Source of the DNA: Candidatus Palauibacter poriticola
GTDB lineage: Bacteria; Gemmatimonadota; Gemmatimonadetes; Palauibacterales; Palauibacteraceae
NCBI GenBank assembly: GCA_012270965.1
Contig: JAAXHJ010000070.1
Coordinates: 1 to 64,000 of the forward strand
DNA length: 64,000 nt
Direction of reading: 5' to 3'
Of the stretch, positions 54,220 through 64,000 are shown piece after piece; positions within the stretch are counted from its first letter, which is position 1; every line of letters starts with the position of its first letter. The notes beneath the pieces were generated by a model. The model saw only the letters and a program-made list of their open reading frames with translations. It was not told the origin of the DNA and searched no databases. The translations under genes and the position numbers were made by a program.

Positions 54220-55429
54220 GTGGAAGGGGGGTGGCCAGCCGATCCGATCCTCGTGCAGGAACACGCAGCGGCCTTCGTCGTCGGGCCGGTAGATCGCCAC
54301 CATCTCCGGGAGACCGCCGCACTCCCGGTCGTCGCCCTGCTGGGGGCACGGCAGGTGGGGAAGACCACGCTCGCCCGGCAGCTGGCGGCGGCGTACTTCG
54401 AGCCCGTGGCTTGGTTCGACCTGGAGGATCCCGCCGATCTCGCACGGTTGGATGATCCGGGACTGGAGCTGCGGCCGCTCGAGGGTCTCGTGGTTCTGGA
54501 TGAGATCCACCGCCTGCCCGATATCTTCCAGCTCCTGCGCGTCCTCGCGGATCGCCCCGGTCCTCCGGCGCGTTTCCTCGTGCTAGGGAGCGCGTCACCC
54601 GCACTCCTGCGGCAGACGTCGGAGTCGCTCGCCGGACGCGTTGCGTTCCACGAACTCGACGGCTTCGGCCTCACCGAGCTGGACGACTTGGAACGGCTCT
54701 GGCTCCGCGGTGGGTTCCCGCGCTCGTACCTGGCTCGATCGGAACCCGCAAGCCGTCGGTGGCGCGACGGGTTCATCCGCACGCTACTGGCGCGGGACCT
54801 CCCGGAACTCGGGAGCACCATCCCGTCGGCGACGCTCCGCCGCTTCTGGGCGATGCTCGCTCACTGGCACGGACAGATCTGGAGCGGCGCCGAGTTCGCC
54901 CGCGCCTTTGGCGTCTCCCACGCAACGGTCCGGCGGTATCTCGACCTGCTGACCTCCGTCCTCGTGGTGCGGCAGCTCCAGCACTGGTTCGAAAACATCA
55001 GCAAACGCCAAGTGCGCTCGCCGAAGGTCTACATCGGCGACTCGGGCATCCTGCACGCGCTGCTCGGGCTCACCAAGCGGACGGATGTTGTGTCGCATCC
55101 CAAGGTGGGGGCTTCGTGGGAAGGGTTCGTCGTCCAACAGATCGTTCATCTGCTGCGCGCCCCCTCGGAGCAGTGCTTCCACTGGTCCACGCACACGGGT
55201 GCGAGGCTCGACCTTCTCGTGATGGACGGAGCGCGGCGATACGGCTTCGAGGTCAAGCGTTCGGAGGCGCCCCGCCTCACGCGATCCACGCGTTCGGCGG
55301 TGGAGACCCTGACTCGACCGCCTCGACGTGGTCCACGCCGGCCCGAAACGCTACCGGCTCGCCGATGATGTTCGCGCACTCCCCGCCGCCGAACTCGCAG
55401 ACACGATGGATCCCTTGCCCGGCAGCTGA
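54220..55429 (+). CDS. DUF4143-type AAA ATPase with a frameshifted C-terminus
   Basis: From the GTG at 54220 the frame gives an ATPase with Walker A 'LLGARQVGKTTLARQL', Walker B 'GLVVLDEIHRLPD', a winged region ('GAEFARAFGVSHATVRRYLD', 'LLTSVLVVRQLQHW') and the DUF4143 PD-(D/E)xK-like end 'VYIGDSGILHALLGL', 'GASWEGFVVQQIVHLL', 'YGFEVKRSEAPRLT'. As read it stops at 55368 with a Pro/Arg tail. From about 55312 the expected C-terminus 'DRLDVVHAGPKRYRLADDV' lies in the next frame and ends at 55429. One base change accounts for this. Such ATPases often sit in mobile or defence regions; their role is unclear. Confidence 0.8.
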
Positions 55430-55928: not shown

Positions 55929-56477
55929 TCACCTCGTCAGTATGCGGTCCAGCCGGTCCAGCGCCTCGCGGACATCCCGCAAGGCGGACTCGGCGATGGA
56001 CTCGGGAGGGCGAACTCCGTACGGTTCCGCCAGCTCCCGCACCGTCGTCGGCTCCGGGCCCTCCAGCTCGATGATCGTGAACGGCACATGGCGGTAACCG
56101 CGCCTCATGCGGTATACGGAGAAGTGCCGCCGATCGAACGTGAACACCCGGTCGATCCCGAAGCGCTCTCCTACACAGACCAGAGAGGCGTCCGCAAAAT
56201 CCATCGGCGTATCCGCGTACCGGACGATGAGGTCGAAGCAGCGTTGCAGATCCCCGTCCTCCAACCGGGACACGGCGAGCGGGCCGTCCAGCACCAGGTC
56301 CATGAGGCCTCGGCACGCCCGCTGACGGCGCGCCAACAAGTGGAAGGCCTCCGTGAGCGCCGGCGTCGTCGTGACGGCCTCATCGCGCAGAGCCGAGAGG
56401 GTCCGGCCGCACGCGACATGCCCGGGCTCGGACGGATCGAACGCGGCCACCAGGGGCCCCGTGTCGATCAGGATCAC
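55929..56477 (-). CDS. PIN-domain toxin, VapC family
   Basis: The 182-residue protein has the PIN acidic residues in 'MILIDTGPLVAAFD' (Asp5), 'TPALTEAFHLLARR', 'DFADASLVCVGERFG' and 'RVFTFDRRHFSVY'. VapC toxins are Mg-dependent RNases held in check by an antitoxin. A C-terminal extension of ~40 residues ('LEGPEPTTVRELAEPYGVRP' and on) exceeds the usual ~130-residue length. The start overlaps the antitoxin stop by ATGA, the standard VapBC arrangement. Unlike most of its neighbours it appears intact. Confidence 0.92.
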   Translation of the reverse strand: MILIDTGPLVAAFDPSEPGHVACGRTLSALRDEAVTTTPALTEAFHLLARRQRACRGLMDLVLDGPLAVSRLEDGDLQRCFDLIVRYADTPMDFADASLVCVGERFGIDRVFTFDRRHFSVYRMRRGYRHVPFTIIELEGPEPTTVRELAEPYGVRPPESIAESALRDVREALDRLDRILTR

Positions 56478-56779
56478 CGGCTGTGTCTCTCCCGGATGAT
56501 CTCCGCCACGGCTTCCTTGTGCCGTCGACGCGGCATGGGCGCGGATTCGGCCTCGTCCGGAGCCCCGGTCGGCCCGTCGTCGTATCGCCGCATGATACGC
56601 TGGTAGGCTTCGCCGATCGTCTCGTCCCTCCTGCCGCCCAGCCGGATGCCGTTCACGTACGTGTCGTAGGACCGGAGACCCCGCTTCAACACCTCCGAGA
56701 TCGAGTGACCGGTCTTTTTCCGGAGATCCTCGAGGATCTCCTCTTCTTCTTCATTGAGTCGTACGGTCCGCAGGCCCAT
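56474..56779 (-). CDS. Ribbon-helix-helix antitoxin, VapB/CopG type
   Basis: The 101-residue protein starts with a ribbon-helix-helix: 'LRTVRLNEEEEEILEDLRKK', then 'TGHSISEVLKRGLRSYDTYV'. The rest is charged and disordered-looking ('RRDETIGEAYQRIMRRYDDG', then an Arg/His-rich end), as in antitoxins whose tail wraps the toxin. It lies directly upstream of the VapC gene with a 4-bp overlap. A dyad 34-57 bp before the ATG is a candidate autoregulatory operator. Confidence 0.88.
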   Translation of the reverse strand: MGLRTVRLNEEEEEILEDLRKKTGHSISEVLKRGLRSYDTYVNGIRLGGRRDETIGEAYQRIMRRYDDGPTGAPDEAESAPMPRRRHKEAVAEIIRERHSR

Positions 56780-56812
56780 CGGCCTTCCCCCGGCTCTCGT
56801 GTAGCGTGACTG

Positions 56813-57034: not shown

Positions 57035-59500
57035 GTGTTCGAGTTTCTCTTCAAATACCGTCCCGTCGTGTTCGAACGCGGCGATCTCTCCCTCGCCGTC
57101 CCTTGGTGGGCCGTGATGCTCGTCTTCCTCGGGGTCGGCGCCGTCGTCTGGTTCGCGCTCGAATACCGCCGGCAGGGACCCACGGTGGAGGCGCGGGACC
57201 GGTGGGTGCTCATGGGACTGCGGGCGGCCGCGCTGGGAGTCCTCGCCTTCCTCCTGATGCGACCCGTGCTCCTCGTCTCGACGGTCGTCCCGCGGCGGAA
57301 CTTCGTGGCGGTCCTGCTCGACGACTCGCGCAGCATGCGCGTGGCGGATGAGAACGGAGAAACGCGCGCGCAACGGATGCTCGACCTCTTCGGTGGGGAG
57401 GAGGAGGGTCCGGCGGGCGGGACGGCCGATCCGCCGGCCGATCCGCTGGTCGAGTCGCCGGCCGACCCGCTGGCCGCCGACCCCGGCGTTTCGGGTTCCG
57501 CGGCGATGGATCCCGCGACTGGGGATCCCGCCGCCGGGCAGGCGTTCGCGACGCGGAGGGGGGACGGCGCGCTCCGCAAGGCGCTCGAGGAGCGTTTCCG
57601 CCTGAGGATGTACGGGTTCGACTCCGACGCGAGCCGGATCGGCGGGGGGGGGGAGATGGCCTTCGCCGGCCCGCGCACGAACCTCGCCGCGGGGCTCGCC
57701 CGCGTGCAGCAGGAGATGGCCGGACTCCCGCTCTCCGGGATCGTCGTCGTCTCCGACGGCGCGGACAACGATGACGAGGCGACCCCGCCGCTCTCCGAGG
57801 CGCTGCTGTCGGCGCGCGCGGCGGGGATCCCGGTGTACACGATCGGCTTGGGCTCGGAACGGATCGCCCCGGATGTCGAGGTGCGTCGCGTGGAGGTGCC
57901 TCGCGCGGCGCTCGAGGGGACGACGATCGTGGCCGACGTCATCGTCTCGCACGCGGGATTGGCCGGCCGCACGGTGCGGCTCGACGTGGAGGACGAGGGG
58001 CGCATCGTGGGCACGCGCGAGCTCACCCTCGGGCCGGACGGCGAGGAGGCGGTGCAGCTCCAATTTACGCTGGAGGAGGCGGGGCCCCGCGCCATCCGCT
58101 TCTTCGTGGATCCGCAGGAGGGAGAGGCCCTGACCGGCAACAACGAGCGCCGGGTGTTGGTGGAGGTCGGCGACACGCGCCGCAGGATCCTCTACTTCGA
58201 GGGCTCGCCGCGCCCGGAGAACAAGTTCATCCGCCGCGCCGTGGCGGACGACGAGAACCTGGACGTCGTCACGCTCCTGAGGACGGCCGACGAAAAATAT
58301 CTCCGCCTCGACGTGGAGGGGCCGGGCGAACTCGCCGGCGGATTCCCGGACACGCGCGAGGAGCTGTACGAGTACGACGGGCTGATCCTGGGGAGCGTGG
58401 AGGCGAGCTTCTTCACGCACGACCAGTTGCAGATGATGGCGGATTTCGTGGCACGGCGCGGGGGCGGACTCCTCGTGTTGGGCGGGCGGAGGTCGCTCGG
58501 CGAGGGCGGCTATACGGGGACGCCCCTGGCCGACGCCCTGCCGGTGGTGCTCGGGGGAGCCGGCGAGCCGGATGTGCTCGAGGTGTCCGCTGAACTCACC
58601 CTGGCCGGCCGCCGACACGCGGCGATGAGGATCGCGGAGGCGGCCGAGTCTTCCACCGAGCGCTGGACGGAGCTTCCGCCCCTCACCTCCGTGAACCGGG
58701 TCTTCGAGCTGAAACCGGGCGCGGTCGACCTCCTCCGGGGCGTGCCCGCCGAGGGCGAGCCGCGCATGCTCCTCGCGCACCAGAGGTACGGACGCGGAAC
58801 GTCGATCGTGTTCGCCGCCCAAGACTCGTGGCTGTGGCAGATGCACGCGGACATCCCCCTGGAGGACGAGACGCACGAGACGTTGTGGCGGCAGTTGCTC
58901 CGCTGGCTCGTGCACGATACGCCCGGGCGCGTCCGTCTCGACTCGGGCGAGGATGTGGTCCCGATGGGGGAGCCGCTGCGGATCCGGGCCGAGGTGGAGG
59001 ACGAACGATACCTGCGCGTGAACGGGGCGGACGTCGTCGCCACGGTGACGGGGCCGGGGGGCGTCGCGTCGGAAGTCCGGCTCGATTGGACGGTCGAGCG
59101 CGACGGCGAGTATGAGGGACGGTTTGTGCCGCGGGAGCGGGGGTTGTACAGCGTGCGGGTGCGCGCGGCGGGAGCCCGGACCGGAGGTCCGGGGGCCGGA
59201 GCAGAGACGAGCCGCGACATCGCCGAGGAAATGAGCTTCTTCCGGGCGGGGACGCCCCGGATCGAGGAGTTCGGCGCGGGCCGCCGCACGGAACTGCTGC
59301 GCCGGATCGCCGACGAGACGGGGGGCCGGTTCTACACGGCCGATGACGCGCCGGTGCTGGCCGACGAGATCCGCTACACGGAGAGCGGGGACACCGTGTA
59401 CGAGGAGCGCTCGCTGTGGGACATGCCCATCCTCTTCCTCCTCCTGGCGGGTCTGCTGGGCGGGGAGTGGGCGTACCGGCGGCGGAAGGATCTCGCGTGA
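57035..59500 (+). CDS. Membrane protein with VWA and glutamine-amidotransferase-like domains
   Basis: The 821-residue protein has two N-terminal helices ('AVPWWAVMLVFLGVGAVVWF', 'GLRAAALGVLAFLLMRPVLL'). A von Willebrand A domain carries the MIDAS pattern 'VLLDDSRSMRVAD', interrupted by a Pro/Ala/Asp-rich low-complexity insert (57390-57550 region). The later part has the class-I-amidotransferase-like fold common in these proteins ('KFIRRAVADDENLDVVTLLR', 'GLLVLGGRRSLGEGGYTGTP') and a final helix 'PILFLLLAGLLGGEWAYRRR'. Such proteins belong to operons with DUF4159, MoxR or DUF58 genes thought to handle envelope stress. I chose the GTG at 57035; a TTG at 56927 is possible. The next gene overlaps by GTGA. 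Confidence 0.88.
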   Translation: MFEFLFKYRPVVFERGDLSLAVPWWAVMLVFLGVGAVVWFALEYRRQGPTVEARDRWVLMGLRAAALGVLAFLLMRPVLLVSTVVPRRNFVAVLLDDSRSMRVADENGETRAQRMLDLFGGEEEGPAGGTADPPADPLVESPADPLAADPGVSGSAAMDPATGDPAAGQAFATRRGDGALRKALEERFRLRMYGFDSDASRIGGGGEMAFAGPRTNLAAGLARVQQEMAGLPLSGIVVVSDGADNDDEATPPLSEALLSARAAGIPVYTIGLGSERIAPDVEVRRVEVPRAALEGTTIVADVIVSHAGLAGRTVRLDVEDEGRIVGTRELTLGPDGEEAVQLQFTLEEAGPRAIRFFVDPQEGEALTGNNERRVLVEVGDTRRRILYFEGSPRPENKFIRRAVADDENLDVVTLLRTADEKYLRLDVEGPGELAGGFPDTREELYEYDGLILGSVEASFFTHDQLQMMADFVARRGGGLLVLGGRRSLGEGGYTGTPLADALPVVLGGAGEPDVLEVSAELTLAGRRHAAMRIAEAAESSTERWTELPPLTSVNRVFELKPGAVDLLRGVPAEGEPRMLLAHQRYGRGTSIVFAAQDSWLWQMHADIPLEDETHETLWRQLLRWLVHDTPGRVRLDSGEDVVPMGEPLRIRAEVEDERYLRVNGADVVATVTGPGGVASEVRLDWTVERDGEYEGRFVPRERGLYSVRVRAAGARTGGPGAGAETSRDIAEEMSFFRAGTPRIEEFGAGRRTELLRRIADETGGRFYTADDAPVLADEIRYTESGDTVYEERSLWDMPILFLLLAGLLGGEWAYRRRKDLA

Positions 59501-60606
59501 TCCGCGGCGCGCGATCCGTCGCGCTCGCCGCAGCGCCGATTCCCGGGCCACTGATTCCCGGGGCGCTGTTTCTCGTGGCACTGGTTCCCGCCGCCTTGAT
59601 TCCGGCCCCCCTTTTCGGCGCCGGCGGCGTCGCGGGCCTCTCGGCCACGGCCCAGGCGGCACCCGCCTCGCCGCGCACCCATGTGCTCATCGTCACCGGC
59701 CTAGGGGGCGCGCCGCAGTACTCCGAGCAGTTCCGGGAGGAAGCCGAGGCGCTGCTCGACGCGCTCGACAGCCGGCTCGGCGTGCGCGAGACCGTCGCGT
59801 GGCTCGCGGAGGACGAGGCGCTGTCCCCCCGCGTGGTGGGCCGGGCCACCCTGGAGGCCGTCGAGGGGGAAGTGCGCGCCATGGCGGAGCGGGCGGGGCC
59901 CTCGGACGTGGCGCTCATCCTCCTGCTCGGCCACGGGAGCGGCGGCGGCCAGGAGTCGCGCTTTAGCTTGCCCGGCCCGGACCTGTCGGGGGAGACGCTC
60001 TCGATGTGGCTCCGCGCGTTCCCGACGCAGACCGTGGCGGTCGTAAACGCGGCGAGCGCCAGCGGCGGGTTCGTGCCCGCGGTCGCCGGCGAGCGGCGCA
60101 TCGTCGTGACGGCCACGCGGTCGGCGCGCGAACGCGAGCGCACCCACTTCGGCGGCTTCTTCGTCGATGCCTTCGCTCTCGACGAGGCCGATGTGGACAA
60201 GGATGAACGAGTGTCGCTGCTCGAGGCGTTCCGCTACGCGACCGGCGAGGTCCGCCGCCGGTACGAGCGGGACAACGAGATGCTGACCGAACACGCCCTG
60301 CTCGACGATGATGGAGACGGCGAGGGATCGCTGGAGCCGAGTCCGGACGGACCCGACGGGACTCTCGCGAACCGGTTCTTCCTCGCCCAGGCGCCGGCCG
60401 CGCTCGCGGAGGCGGCGGCGGACGACCCGGCCGTGGCCGCGCTCCTGGCGCGGAAACGCGAGGTGGAGGACGGGATCGCCGCCCTCCGCGCTCGCCGCGC
60501 CGAGATGGAGGAGGAGGAATACGACGCGCAGCTCGAGACGCTCCTCGTCGAACTTGCCCGCCTCAACCGCGCCATCCGCGAGGGTGGGAGCGTCCGGTGC
60601 GCCTGA
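59497..60606 (+). CDS. Exported C13/caspase-like fold protein lacking the catalytic Cys
   Basis: The 369-residue protein has a long Pro/Ala-rich hydrophobic leader ('PGALFLVALVPAALIPAPLF' and on to 'LSATAQA'). The C13/caspase-like domain begins 'RTHVLIVTGLGGAPQYSEQF', with the His region 'LILLLGHGSGGGQESRFSLP' and, where the nucleophile would be ('DTCxSG'), 'VVNAASASGGFVPAVAGERR'. So the catalytic Cys is replaced, and protease activity is unlikely; it may be a pseudoenzyme scaffold. The C-terminus is a charged helix ('RKREVEDGIAALRARRAEME') of coiled-coil type. It is coupled by overlaps to the VWA gene before and the TPR gene after it. Confidence 0.8.
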   Translation: MIRGARSVALAAAPIPGPLIPGALFLVALVPAALIPAPLFGAGGVAGLSATAQAAPASPRTHVLIVTGLGGAPQYSEQFREEAEALLDALDSRLGVRETVAWLAEDEALSPRVVGRATLEAVEGEVRAMAERAGPSDVALILLLGHGSGGGQESRFSLPGPDLSGETLSMWLRAFPTQTVAVVNAASASGGFVPAVAGERRIVVTATRSARERERTHFGGFFVDAFALDEADVDKDERVSLLEAFRYATGEVRRRYERDNEMLTEHALLDDDGDGEGSLEPSPDGPDGTLANRFFLAQAPAALAEAAADDPAVAALLARKREVEDGIAALRARRAEMEEEEYDAQLETLLVELARLNRAIREGGSVRCA

Positions 60607-63368
60607 CCGTGCGTCCGGCCGCGCGCTTGGCCCCGCGCCCGCCCGGCCGCCTAACCCCGCGCCCGCCCGTCCGGTTGACGGGGCACCCAATGCGGGTCGC
60701 GCTCCCGGCACCCGCGCCGGCGCTCGGGTCCGCGCTGGCGCTCGGGCTCGGGCTGGCGCTCGGGCTCGCGTCGCCGCCGCCGGGGCATGCGCAGGAGTCG
60801 GCGGGCGCGGGCGGGCGCTCCGGACCCCTGGCGGCCGCAATTGAATCGCACCAGACCGGCGACTACGGGCGAGCGGTCGCGGCGTACCGGTCGGCGGCCC
60901 GTGCCGGGCGCGAGTTTCCGGCCTCGGCGCGGGGGTGGGCGCGCGCGCTCGCCGCGACCGGAGAGTACGAGTCCGCGCTCGAAGCCCTCGACGGGGCCGC
61001 CGCGCGCGCCCCGGACGGAGCGGACGCCGACACCGAACTCGCCCGTGCGCGCGGGCGTCTGCTGTACGCGCTCGGACGCCTCGACGAGGCCGAGGCGAAC
61101 TTCCGCCGGGCCATCGAGGGCCGTGCCGGCGATGCCCAACTTGCGCGGCTCGACTTGGGCCGCCTCCTCTTCGACCGCGGGGCGCGCGAGGAAGCCCTCG
61201 CCCTGTTCGACGGCTTCATCGATTTCTACAACCGCGGCGCCCGCCGCCTCGGCACCGGGGAACTGCGCGCCGTCGGCACCGCCCTCACCTACCTTGGAGC
61301 CCGCGACCCCGATCTCTTCCACGACGCGGTACGCGCCTTCGAGGAGGCCATCGAAGCGGACCCCGGCGACCCCGAGCCGCGCATCGACCTCGGTCTCCTC
61401 TTTCTTGACAAGTACGACAGCTTCGAGGCGGGGCCGCTGATCGAGGAGGCGCTGGCCCGCAACCCGGCCCACGCGCGCGCCCTCTTGGCGAAGGCGCGCC
61501 GCGCGAAGTTCGAGGGCTCCTCCGAGGCGCTCGAACTCGCCGAGCGGGCGCTGGAGACGAACCCGCGTCTCACCGAAGCCCGGGCTTTCCTGGCGCGGCT
61601 ATTTCTCGAACTCGAGGATGTGGACGAGGCCGAGGCGGAAGCCCGGCGCGCGTTGGAAACGAACCCCGTCTCCCTATCCGCGTGGACGGAGATCGCGGCC
61701 GCCGCCCACCTGCGGGGGGACGCGGCCGCCTTCGCCGAGGCGCGCGACCGCGTACTGCGGTTGGATCCATGGCACGCCGATCTCTACGTCGCCCTCGCCC
61801 AGGTCGCCTACCGCACGCACCGCTACGCCGATGCGGTCGAGTTCGCGCGGCAGGCCGTGGCCCTCGATCCCCTGTCCTGGTCCGGCATGTCGGAACTCGG
61901 CCTCAACCAGCTCCGCGTCGGCGACCTGGAGGTGGGGCGCGCGACGCTCGAGGCCTCCTTCGCGGGCGATCCCTTTAACGTCTGGGTGTTCAATACGCTG
62001 GACCTGCTCGAGGAACTGGCCGGGTTCGAGACGGTGGAGAGTCCGCGCTTCGTGTTCTCCATGCACCCGAGGGAGGCCGGCGCGCTCTCCATCTACGCCA
62101 CGGCGCTCGCGGAGGAAGCCTTCGACGCCATGCGCGCCCGCTACGGGTTCGATCCGCCGGCGCCGATCTCGGTCGAGGTGTACGACCGGCACGCGGACTT
62201 TTCCGTGCGCACGGTCGGACTCGCCGGCATCGGCGCGCTCGGCGTGAGCTTCGGCTCCATCCTCGCCATGGACTCCCCCGGCGCGCGCCCCGGGGGCGCG
62301 TTCAACTGGGGCTCGACGCTGTGGCACGAGATCTCGCACGCGTTCACGCTCGGTTACACCGAGCACCGCATCCCCCGCTGGCTCTCCGAGGGGCTCGCGG
62401 TCCTCGACGAACGGCACGCGCGCGAGGGGTGGGGGTCCGACGTCGACCCCGGCTTCCTCGCCGCCTTCCGGGACAAGCGGCTACCCTCGCTCGAGCGCTT
62501 CAACTACGGCTTCGTGCGGCCCGCCTACCCCGGGCAGGTGCAGCACGCCTACTACATGGCCTCCCTCCTGTGCGAGATGATCGAGACGACGCGCGGCTTT
62601 GACGCCGTGCTCGCCATGCTCGCCGGGTATCGCGACGGACTGGAGACGCCGGAGGTCGTGGAACGGGCGCTGGGGACGACGCTCCCGGCCCTCGACCGCG
62701 AGTTGCGCGACTACATCGAGGCCCGCTTCGGCCCGACGCTGAAGGCGCTTGGCGACCCCGAAGCCGGGGCAACGCCCGGCCCCGACACCTTCGCCGGACT
62801 GCTCACGGCGGCGGCGGAGGCACGGCGGGCGGGCCGGACGGAGGAGGCGATGCGGGCGCTGGAGAGGGCGCATGAGGTCTTCCCCGAGTACGCGGGACGC
62901 GACGCGCCGATTCTCATTCTCGGCCAACTCCGGCGCGAAGCCGGCGATCTCGCGCCCGCGGCGGAGGCGTACCGGACGTACACCGCCCTCAACGAGAACC
63001 ACTTCGAAGCGCACCTCGCGCTCGCGGACCTCGAACAGGCGCTCGGCAACGATGCGGCCGCCCGCGAAGCGCTGGAGCGCGCGATCTGGATCGACCCGTT
63101 TCACCTAGATCTGCACGCGCGGCTCGCCTCCGGCTACGAGGCCGCCGAACTCTGGCCCCAGGCGGCGCGGGAGCGGCGGGCGCTGCTGGCGCTGTCGCCG
63201 GCGGATCCGGCGGAAGCCCACTACCGGCTCGCCCTCGCGCTGCACCGGGGCGGAGACGCGGGCGGCGCCCGGAGCGCGGTCCTCGATGCCCTTGAGATCG
63301 CCCCCAACTTCGAGGCCGCGCTCGATCTCCTGCTCGAGATCCGCGGCGACCCGGAGGGCCCGCGTTGA
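60597..63368 (+). CDS. TPR protein with peptidase MA-type (HExxH) domain
   Basis: The frame gives 923 residues from GTG 60597, which overlaps the preceding stop. ATG 60690 would remove 31 basic residues (8-residue repeats 'RLAPRPPG', 'RLTPRPPV') and start at a clean signal peptide ending 'SPPPGHAQE'. N- and C-terminal TPR repeats ('RARGRLLYALGRLDEAEANF', 'AAAEAYRTYTALNENHFEAH') flank a metallopeptidase region with 'STLWHEISHAFTLGY' (HExxH) and 'RIPRWLSEGLAVLDERHARE', whose Glu is the third zinc ligand of gluzincins. The enzyme likely acts on envelope proteins and uses the TPRs to recruit partners of the same operon. Confidence 0.85.
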   Translation: MRLTVRPAARLAPRPPGRLTPRPPVRLTGHPMRVALPAPAPALGSALALGLGLALGLASPPPGHAQESAGAGGRSGPLAAAIESHQTGDYGRAVAAYRSAARAGREFPASARGWARALAATGEYESALEALDGAAARAPDGADADTELARARGRLLYALGRLDEAEANFRRAIEGRAGDAQLARLDLGRLLFDRGAREEALALFDGFIDFYNRGARRLGTGELRAVGTALTYLGARDPDLFHDAVRAFEEAIEADPGDPEPRIDLGLLFLDKYDSFEAGPLIEEALARNPAHARALLAKARRAKFEGSSEALELAERALETNPRLTEARAFLARLFLELEDVDEAEAEARRALETNPVSLSAWTEIAAAAHLRGDAAAFAEARDRVLRLDPWHADLYVALAQVAYRTHRYADAVEFARQAVALDPLSWSGMSELGLNQLRVGDLEVGRATLEASFAGDPFNVWVFNTLDLLEELAGFETVESPRFVFSMHPREAGALSIYATALAEEAFDAMRARYGFDPPAPISVEVYDRHADFSVRTVGLAGIGALGVSFGSILAMDSPGARPGGAFNWGSTLWHEISHAFTLGYTEHRIPRWLSEGLAVLDERHAREGWGSDVDPGFLAAFRDKRLPSLERFNYGFVRPAYPGQVQHAYYMASLLCEMIETTRGFDAVLAMLAGYRDGLETPEVVERALGTTLPALDRELRDYIEARFGPTLKALGDPEAGATPGPDTFAGLLTAAAEARRAGRTEEAMRALERAHEVFPEYAGRDAPILILGQLRREAGDLAPAAEAYRTYTALNENHFEAHLALADLEQALGNDAAAREALERAIWIDPFHLDLHARLASGYEAAELWPQAARERRALLALSPADPAEAHYRLALALHRGGDAGGARSAVLDALEIAPNFEAALDLLLEIRGDPEGPR

Positions 63369-64000
63369 CCACGCGGACCCGACGCCCCGCGCCCCGATGT
63401 CTCAAGGCCCGACGCCTCCCACGGCTCAACGCCTCAACGGCCCGACGCCTCGCGCCCCGACAGCCAACGGCCCGACGTCTCGCGGCCGGCTGCCTAGCCG
63501 CGCTGATCACGCTGCTCGCGGTTGCCGACCTCGACGGCCAGCGCCGGCGGGGACGCGGAGGAGGCGGGTTCGGGAACGACCTCGCCGCCTATCAGGAGTA
63601 CAACACGCCCTATACGGGCGAGTTCACCTTCGTGCGCCTCTATTACCACGGCGGGTGGGGCTGGAACCCCGGCTGGTCGCACGACTGGCCCGTAGCCGAG
63701 CGCAACTTCGCCGAGATCATGGACGCGCTCACCACCATTGGCCCGCGCAAGGGCGGCGGCAACGTCCTCGCCATGGACGACCCCGACCTGTTCAAGTTCC
63801 CCGTCGCGTACCTCTCGGAACCCGGCGGCTGGACCATGAACCAAGTGGAGGCCGACAACCTGAGCAACTATCTGCGCAAGGGCGGGTTCCTCATCATCGA
63901 CGACATGGGCGGCGAGCGGGACTTGGACAGGACGAGGCAGGGGCTTCACATCCTGCTTCCGGGACTCCGGCTCGTGCGGCTCGACGACAGCCACCCGATC
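63365..64000 (+). CDS. DUF4159 domain protein, cut by the right edge
   Basis: The TTG start overlaps the stop of the TPR gene. The first ~45 residues are Arg/Pro/Ala-rich and encoded by degenerate 'cggcccgacgcct' type repeats, followed by a signal-like segment ('LAAGCLAALITLLAVADLDG'). The DUF4159 domain follows: 'YNTPYTGEFTFVRLYYHGGW', 'SEPGGWTMNQVEADNLSNYL', 'RKGGFLIIDDMGGER'. DUF4159 has a class-I amidotransferase-like fold and is usually found with VWA and MoxR genes. At least 212 residues are present; the C-terminus lies beyond the window. Confidence 0.88.
   Translation, partial: MTTRTRRPAPRCLKARRLPRLNASTARRLAPRQPTARRLAAGCLAALITLLAVADLDGQRRRGRGGGGFGNDLAAYQEYNTPYTGEFTFVRLYYHGGWGWNPGWSHDWPVAERNFAEIMDALTTIGPRKGGGNVLAMDDPDLFKFPVAYLSEPGGWTMNQVEADNLSNYLRKGGFLIIDDMGGERDLDRTRQGLHILLPGLRLVRLDDSHPI

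Follow-up and report, generated by a model that had tools for sequence, protein, structure and literature searches.

A putatively non-catalytic relative of peptidase family C13 encoded in a conserved MoxR/VWA operon of Gemmatimonadota

Background on clan CD, to which the caspase-like peptidases belong, can be found in the accessible part of PMC4357240. According to the available sections of PMC6426788, pseudo-orthocaspases are C14-type proteins, mostly with a Tyr-Ser pair, that occur mainly in Alphaproteobacteria and Cyanobacteria and are absent from RCII-bearing Gemmatimonadetes; the trypanosome proteins TbMC1 and TbMC4 are there assigned to the HS and YS types. Inactive caspases are also found in MoxR-vWA conflict systems, where ∼70% of the caspase domains in the effector position are inactive (PMC7159879, accessible text). 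MoxR genes are further part of the Bat (aerotolerance) or MoxR-DUF58-BatA operons; deletion of Bat in Leptospira biflexa led to no oxidative phenotype, and the function of Bat is described as unsettled in the available part of PMC3557215.

Here we describe a C13-like protein encoded in the window, i.e. the first 64 kb (64,000 nucleotides) of a 76.6-kb contig of the 3.56-Mb genome of Candidatus Palauibacter poriticola (Table 1). Its operon resembles the Bat operons in having MoxR, DUF58 and BatA genes in order, but adds as a block the genes for a VWA/GATase1-like protein, the C13-like protein, a TPR-metallopeptidase, a DUF4159 protein and a DUF4175-like protein. With the ternary MoxR-vWA systems it shares MoxR, VWA and an apparently inactive protein of the caspase superfamily; however, Pfam scans of the operon proteins found no VMAP, iSTAND, FtsH or beta-propeller, the gene order is fixed and the set is of the DUF58/BatA type, so that the conflict systems, as the accessible text of PMC7159879 presents them, differ in both partners and variability. 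The pseudo-orthocaspases and TbMC1/TbMC4 are likewise p20/caspase-like proteins with a changed Cys (often Ser) that are presumed inactive; but the pseudo-orthocaspases of PMC6426788, in the part available, are C14-type and keep the acidic pocket, whereas the family described here is C13-type, pairs His with Ser or Thr and has lost the acid. The homology to peptidase family C13 itself (legumain-like, PF01650; including the C13 protein of plasmid CP109682.1) runs through the His and nucleophile motifs, but the catalytic Cys is replaced in every informative sequence, nearly always by Ser or Thr; unlike the C13 protein of plasmid CP109682.1, the family lies in a MoxR operon and has no MORN repeats. 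Among open-licence papers we found none on the C13-like family and none for DUF4159. The initial annotation had considered the arrangement undescribed: this stands for the C13-like family in the literature searched, but not for the association of inactive caspases with MoxR-vWA, which is known (PMC7159879, accessible text).

Table 1. Genes and motifs of the operon in the window (positions of the window; the strand is that of the contig).
Feature	Coordinates	Strand	Basis
VWA/GATase1_like (PF07090) membrane-anchored protein; hydrophobic N- and C-terminal stretches	57035..59500	+	GTG start, ORF + Pfam
C13-like protein, Cys-to-Ser swap, apparently secreted; predicted C-terminal helices	59497..60606	+	GTG start
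GHG catalytic-His motif	59929..59937	+	alignment
S-A-S-G; first Ser in nucleophile Cys column	60055..60066	+	alignment
EF-hand-like loop D-V-D-K-D-E-R-V-S-L-L-E; family-conserved, putative calcium binding	60190..60225	+	alignment
TPR protein that includes a gluzincin-type metallopeptidase domain	60597..63368	+	GTG start
zinc-site motif, from HEISH (62325-62339) to the Glu of WLSEG (62388-62390)	62325..62390	+	
DUF4159 protein, TTG start; runs past the window to contig position 64249	63365..64000	+	ORF + Pfam

The four genes overlap on the same strand by 4 nt (GTGA, VWA stop/C13-like start), 10 nt (C13-like/TPR-HExxH) and 4 nt (TTGA, TPR-HExxH/DUF4159), which bears out the four-gene coupled operon that had been proposed for this stretch. 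A start codon at −3 of the VWA stop recurs in 37 of the 44 loci with data, the 10-nt overlap is common to the six relatives of the genus, and all four genus relatives whose sequence extends to the DUF4159 start have ATG in that position (all three counted by eye); the coupling is therefore no accident, and the unusual TTG start of DUF4159 is supported by the ATG found in its place. Pfam assigns GATase1_like and a weak VWA match to the first protein, TPRs and a weak Peptidase_MA_2 match to the third, and DUF4159 to the fourth. The VWA protein contains a DDSRS motif, which we take to be MIDAS-like. Past the window follow, in order, genes for MoxR (AAA_3, 6.6e-61), DUF58, BatA, a DUF4175-like protein of 1201 residues and a TauE-type permease. 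Upstream, the operon is preceded by an AAA_14/DUF4143 ATPase gene (54220-55368, + strand) and, closer to it and on the opposite strand, by a gene for a PIN-domain protein (55929-56782, − strand) beside a weak ribbon-helix-helix match; the two resemble a VapBC-type toxin-antitoxin pair.

Gene order was compared over 48 operon loci (eight close, 40 picked for spread), with counts restricted to loci with sufficient flank. The VWA gene is directly upstream of the C13-like gene in all 45 loci; downstream are found the TPR-peptidase (44/47), DUF4159 (34/40) and MoxR (38/40) and, further on, DUF58 (31/33) and BatA (28/30), with MoxR, DUF58 and BatA adjacent to one another. The conservation of gene order, whose absence the initial annotation had set as a refuting observation, and the downstream co-occurrence of MoxR and DUF58, which it had named as a check, are thus found. 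There are exceptions: the downstream genes deviate throughout in L075 and L078, where no TPR-peptidase closely follows the C13-like gene, in L079 the TPR-peptidase and DUF4159 lie at a greater distance because of an insertion, and DUF4159 is missing from its usual place in L084, L086 and L102.

The search for relatives covered 394 genomes within the phylum and, beyond the phylum, plasmids. The C13-like family is found in 152 of the 298 genomes of the phylum sample (four of them weak matches), and the gene is nearly always single-copy. In the class sample, 63 of the 119 genomes strongly match the VWA protein and 65 the metallopeptidase, the latter being the same 63 plus G026 and G097; by-eye comparison places the C13-like gene in 62 of the 63, the exception being G134, where the VWA match begins right at the contig edge (base 2). 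The BatA protein of the operon has no strong match in any of the 21 tested genomes without a C13-like gene (E-values no better than 1e-16, whereas the three genomes with the gene reach at least 1e-78). Since BatA has no strong match where the C13-like gene is missing, the whole operon seems to be gained or lost as one, and in Gemmatimonadota it seems to be present or absent as a block. A VWA-C13-TPR cassette placed on a common MoxR core is unsupported, as BatA too lacks a strong match in those 21 genomes. DUF4159 is useless as a marker because it is present in 18 of the 21. The plasmid search returned Gemmatirosa and one Pseudomonas C13 protein; in Gemmatirosa kalamazoonensis the gene is on a 1.1-Mb replicon (NZ_CP007129.1). 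No relative of the C13-like protein was found in the viral contigs and phages searched.

The C13-like family is homologous to peptidase family C13. Its orthologue L028 shares 34% identity with the Pseudomonas C13 protein (BLASTP, E-value 9e-15), and the pairing is gap-free through the motif (AASASGGFI against SACYSGGFI). In PF01650 the Pseudomonas C13 yardstick scores 136.9 bits, orthologue L086 exceeds the cut-off (26.5 against 22.8) and the protein of the window, with 11.1 bits, is under it; 10 of the 17 A1 members match PF01650 at E-values up to 1, the best being 1.4e-7. A comparison by hhalign with 18 C14 sequences of the phylum gave a probability of 97.9 (E-value 4.6e-13). A search of G000 with PF00656 (Peptidase_C14) gave no match to the C13-like family, PF00656 is absent from the family matches listed for the 17 A1 members, and NCBIfam named nothing useful for the protein. 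The structure model of the protein is weak, with a mean pLDDT of 53; with this model metacaspases were at the top of the Foldseek results (E-value 4.7e-4), and its VIA Z values were 10.3 for metacaspase, 10.0 for legumain and ∼9 for unrelated VWA rows.

We collected 150 distinct family sequences (matches with E-values of 1e-20 or better), excluding the weak matches G115, G219, G303 and G307, which are probably other caspases, as well as G213, G244 and G273; three of the 150 have no nucleophile column, leaving 147 informative. This column holds Ser (122), Thr (21), Pro (3) or Asp (1) and never Cys, so a hydroxyl residue is present in 143 sequences and the catalytic Cys in A-C-x-S-G, as required of an active C13 peptidase, in none. 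The first Ser of SASG pairs gap-free with the catalytic Cys of legumain, of the C14 caspases of the phylum and of bacterial C13; the nucleophile has therefore been swapped from Cys to Ser, and a simply absent nucleophile is ruled out by the Ser or Thr in these alignments. The initial annotation had reported GHGS and NAASASGG in a cysteine-less protein without a nucleophile: both motifs are there, with Ser standing in the Cys column, and the domain does lack Cys, though the full chain has one near its C-terminus. The missing Cys, whose presence in orthologues had been set beforehand as a refuting observation, is conserved as missing throughout. The complete absence of Cys likewise rules out a recent loss. 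Cys-bearing caspase homologues with intact DACxSG-type motifs exist in the same phylum, so the loss is specific to the C13-like family and does not extend to the caspases of the phylum generally.

At the catalytic-His position 147 of 148 sequences carry His and one carries Gln, the second Ser of SxSG is invariant (147/147), and the nucleophile column itself ranks only 67th of 309 by conservation. Where most C14 caspases have an Asp, presumably part of their acidic specificity pocket, the aligned residue is Thr in 67 sequences, Ala in 56, Leu in 17 and another in seven, but never Asp or Glu. In the EF-hand-like loop the first Asp and the last Glu are invariant (149/149), while the second Asp is kept in 142 (Asn in seven) and the third in 140 (Asn in nine); the loop may bind calcium. 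A FastTree tree was made from 146 rows with the nucleophile column left out; the fewest changes that it requires at this column are eight for all states, five between Ser and Thr and three between hydroxyl and none. The sole member with Gln at the His column (L210, G292) also has Pro at the nucleophile column, and in L036 (G026) a run of undetermined residues makes the motif unreadable. Outside the C13-like family, the C14-like protein L122 (G117), from the same phylum, shows GLG instead of GHG and DTSHRG instead of DACxSG and is a further degenerate caspase. L111 (G051, contig C81), whose genome lacks the operon, is C13-like and has the Cys (NHGS, EQCYSG); its DANSNGRISAREAF loop is similar, and it may be an active relative.

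The TPR protein carries the gluzincin (MA-type) motif, HExxH plus a downstream Glu, and this is kept in all 47 TPR-peptidase sequences long enough (one more HExxH sequence, outside the 47, ends at its locus edge), although Peptidase_MA_2 scores 22.2 bits against a cut-off of 32.4. The earlier description of an apparently active metallopeptidase agrees with this conservation. The N-terminus is hydrophobic in 35 of the 37 C13-like orthologues with a start found (threshold 1.6; L087, with an unreliable start, and L110, marginally under, are the two below), and the C13-like protein is thus probably secreted and located outside the inner membrane. VWA and BatA have hydrophobic stretches at the N- and C-terminus, and none was found in the parts of MoxR that were scored.

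We give a probability of roughly 55% to the reading that the C13-like protein is secreted, has no catalytic activity and serves as the C13 subunit of a MoxR/VWA envelope machine, with the partner and function that we infer as follows. Catalysis as a Cys-peptidase would have been lost before the class diversified, with Ser, or Thr in some lineages, replacing the nucleophile Cys; the acidic substrate pocket has gone, and the His, the SG turn and the calcium-binding-like loop have been retained. The protein would then act as a binding subunit without catalytic function, perhaps stabilised by calcium, in an inner-membrane machine. MoxR (AAA+) and DUF58 would be cytosolic, BatA and the VWA/GATase1-like protein would sit in the membrane, and DUF4159, the C13-like protein and the TPR-metallopeptidase would be found on its outer side. 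The coupling points to the C13-like protein being made together with the VWA protein and the metallopeptidase, so its most likely role would be to form a complex in which a client is held or presented to the active metallopeptidase. The initial annotation had proposed a pseudoprotease serving as scaffold of an envelope complex; this proposal is supported in part, by the conserved lack of Cys, the gene order, the metallopeptidase motif and the downstream MoxR and DUF58, with the scaffold role, the contact with the metallopeptidase and the inactivity being putative. The loci L075 and L078 (and L079, by its insertion), which have no close TPR-peptidase, and the weak structure model are points against this explanation.

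It is unlikely, but conceivable, that the protein has nothing to do with the metallopeptidase and instead binds a non-protein ligand or a peptide signal outside the membrane, which it reports to VWA/MoxR. The near-invariant His and the invariant Ser of the SG turn, kept without the Cys, suggest a retained binding cleft, and the VWA adjacency is the strictest link of the operon; however, the genes for the TPR-metallopeptidase and the VWA protein are inherited together, being shared by 63 of the 65 genomes with strong matches. The hydroxyl residues and the near-invariant His also count against inactivity, since chemistry could persist: Ser or Thr could be a working nucleophile paired with the kept His, making the protein a serine/threonine-type hydrolase or transferase of the clan CD fold. 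The excess of Ser/Thr changes over gains and losses of the hydroxyl, and the Pro found in the only His-less sequence, are in line with this, but three of the four sequences with Pro or Asp retain His, the nucleophile column is far from the best conserved, and the available text of PMC12445089 describes the MEROPS clan CD as eight cysteine-peptidase families with a His-Cys dyad or triad. As the acid of the pocket has been lost (mostly Thr, Ala or Leu) and four sequences have Pro or Asp, we weigh a loss of peptidase activity, which the motif changes suggest, above such an enzyme, which appears rather improbable; its more specific form, a serine/threonine-type clan CD enzyme outside the inner membrane, in the MoxR/VWA machine beside the metallopeptidase, is slightly less probable still.

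The combination of MoxR, VWA and an inactive caspase-like protein is the theme of the ternary systems in the accessible text of PMC7159879, and the operon might accordingly serve in conflict (defence), as a MoxR-vWA system whose effector is an inactive caspase. We consider this very unlikely, given the absence from the Pfam scans of the domains named above, the fixed gene order with nearly always one copy per genome and the apparent secretion of the C13-like protein. A recent mutation or a pseudogene in the source genome has hardly any probability left, as Cys is lacking throughout the family and there are no internal stops among the matches listed.

The C13-like protein belongs to a fixed, co-inherited block that joins a MoxR/DUF58/Bat operon, a type whose role is unsettled, to a Cys-less C13 protein and a metallopeptidase that appears live, and this block supplies a defined set of partners for testing the role of MoxR/DUF58/Bat. 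The results also suggest that surveys of pseudo-caspases based on Peptidase_C14 miss pseudopeptidases of the C13 type. Finally, the family poses a clean test of whether the clan CD fold can work with Ser or Thr.
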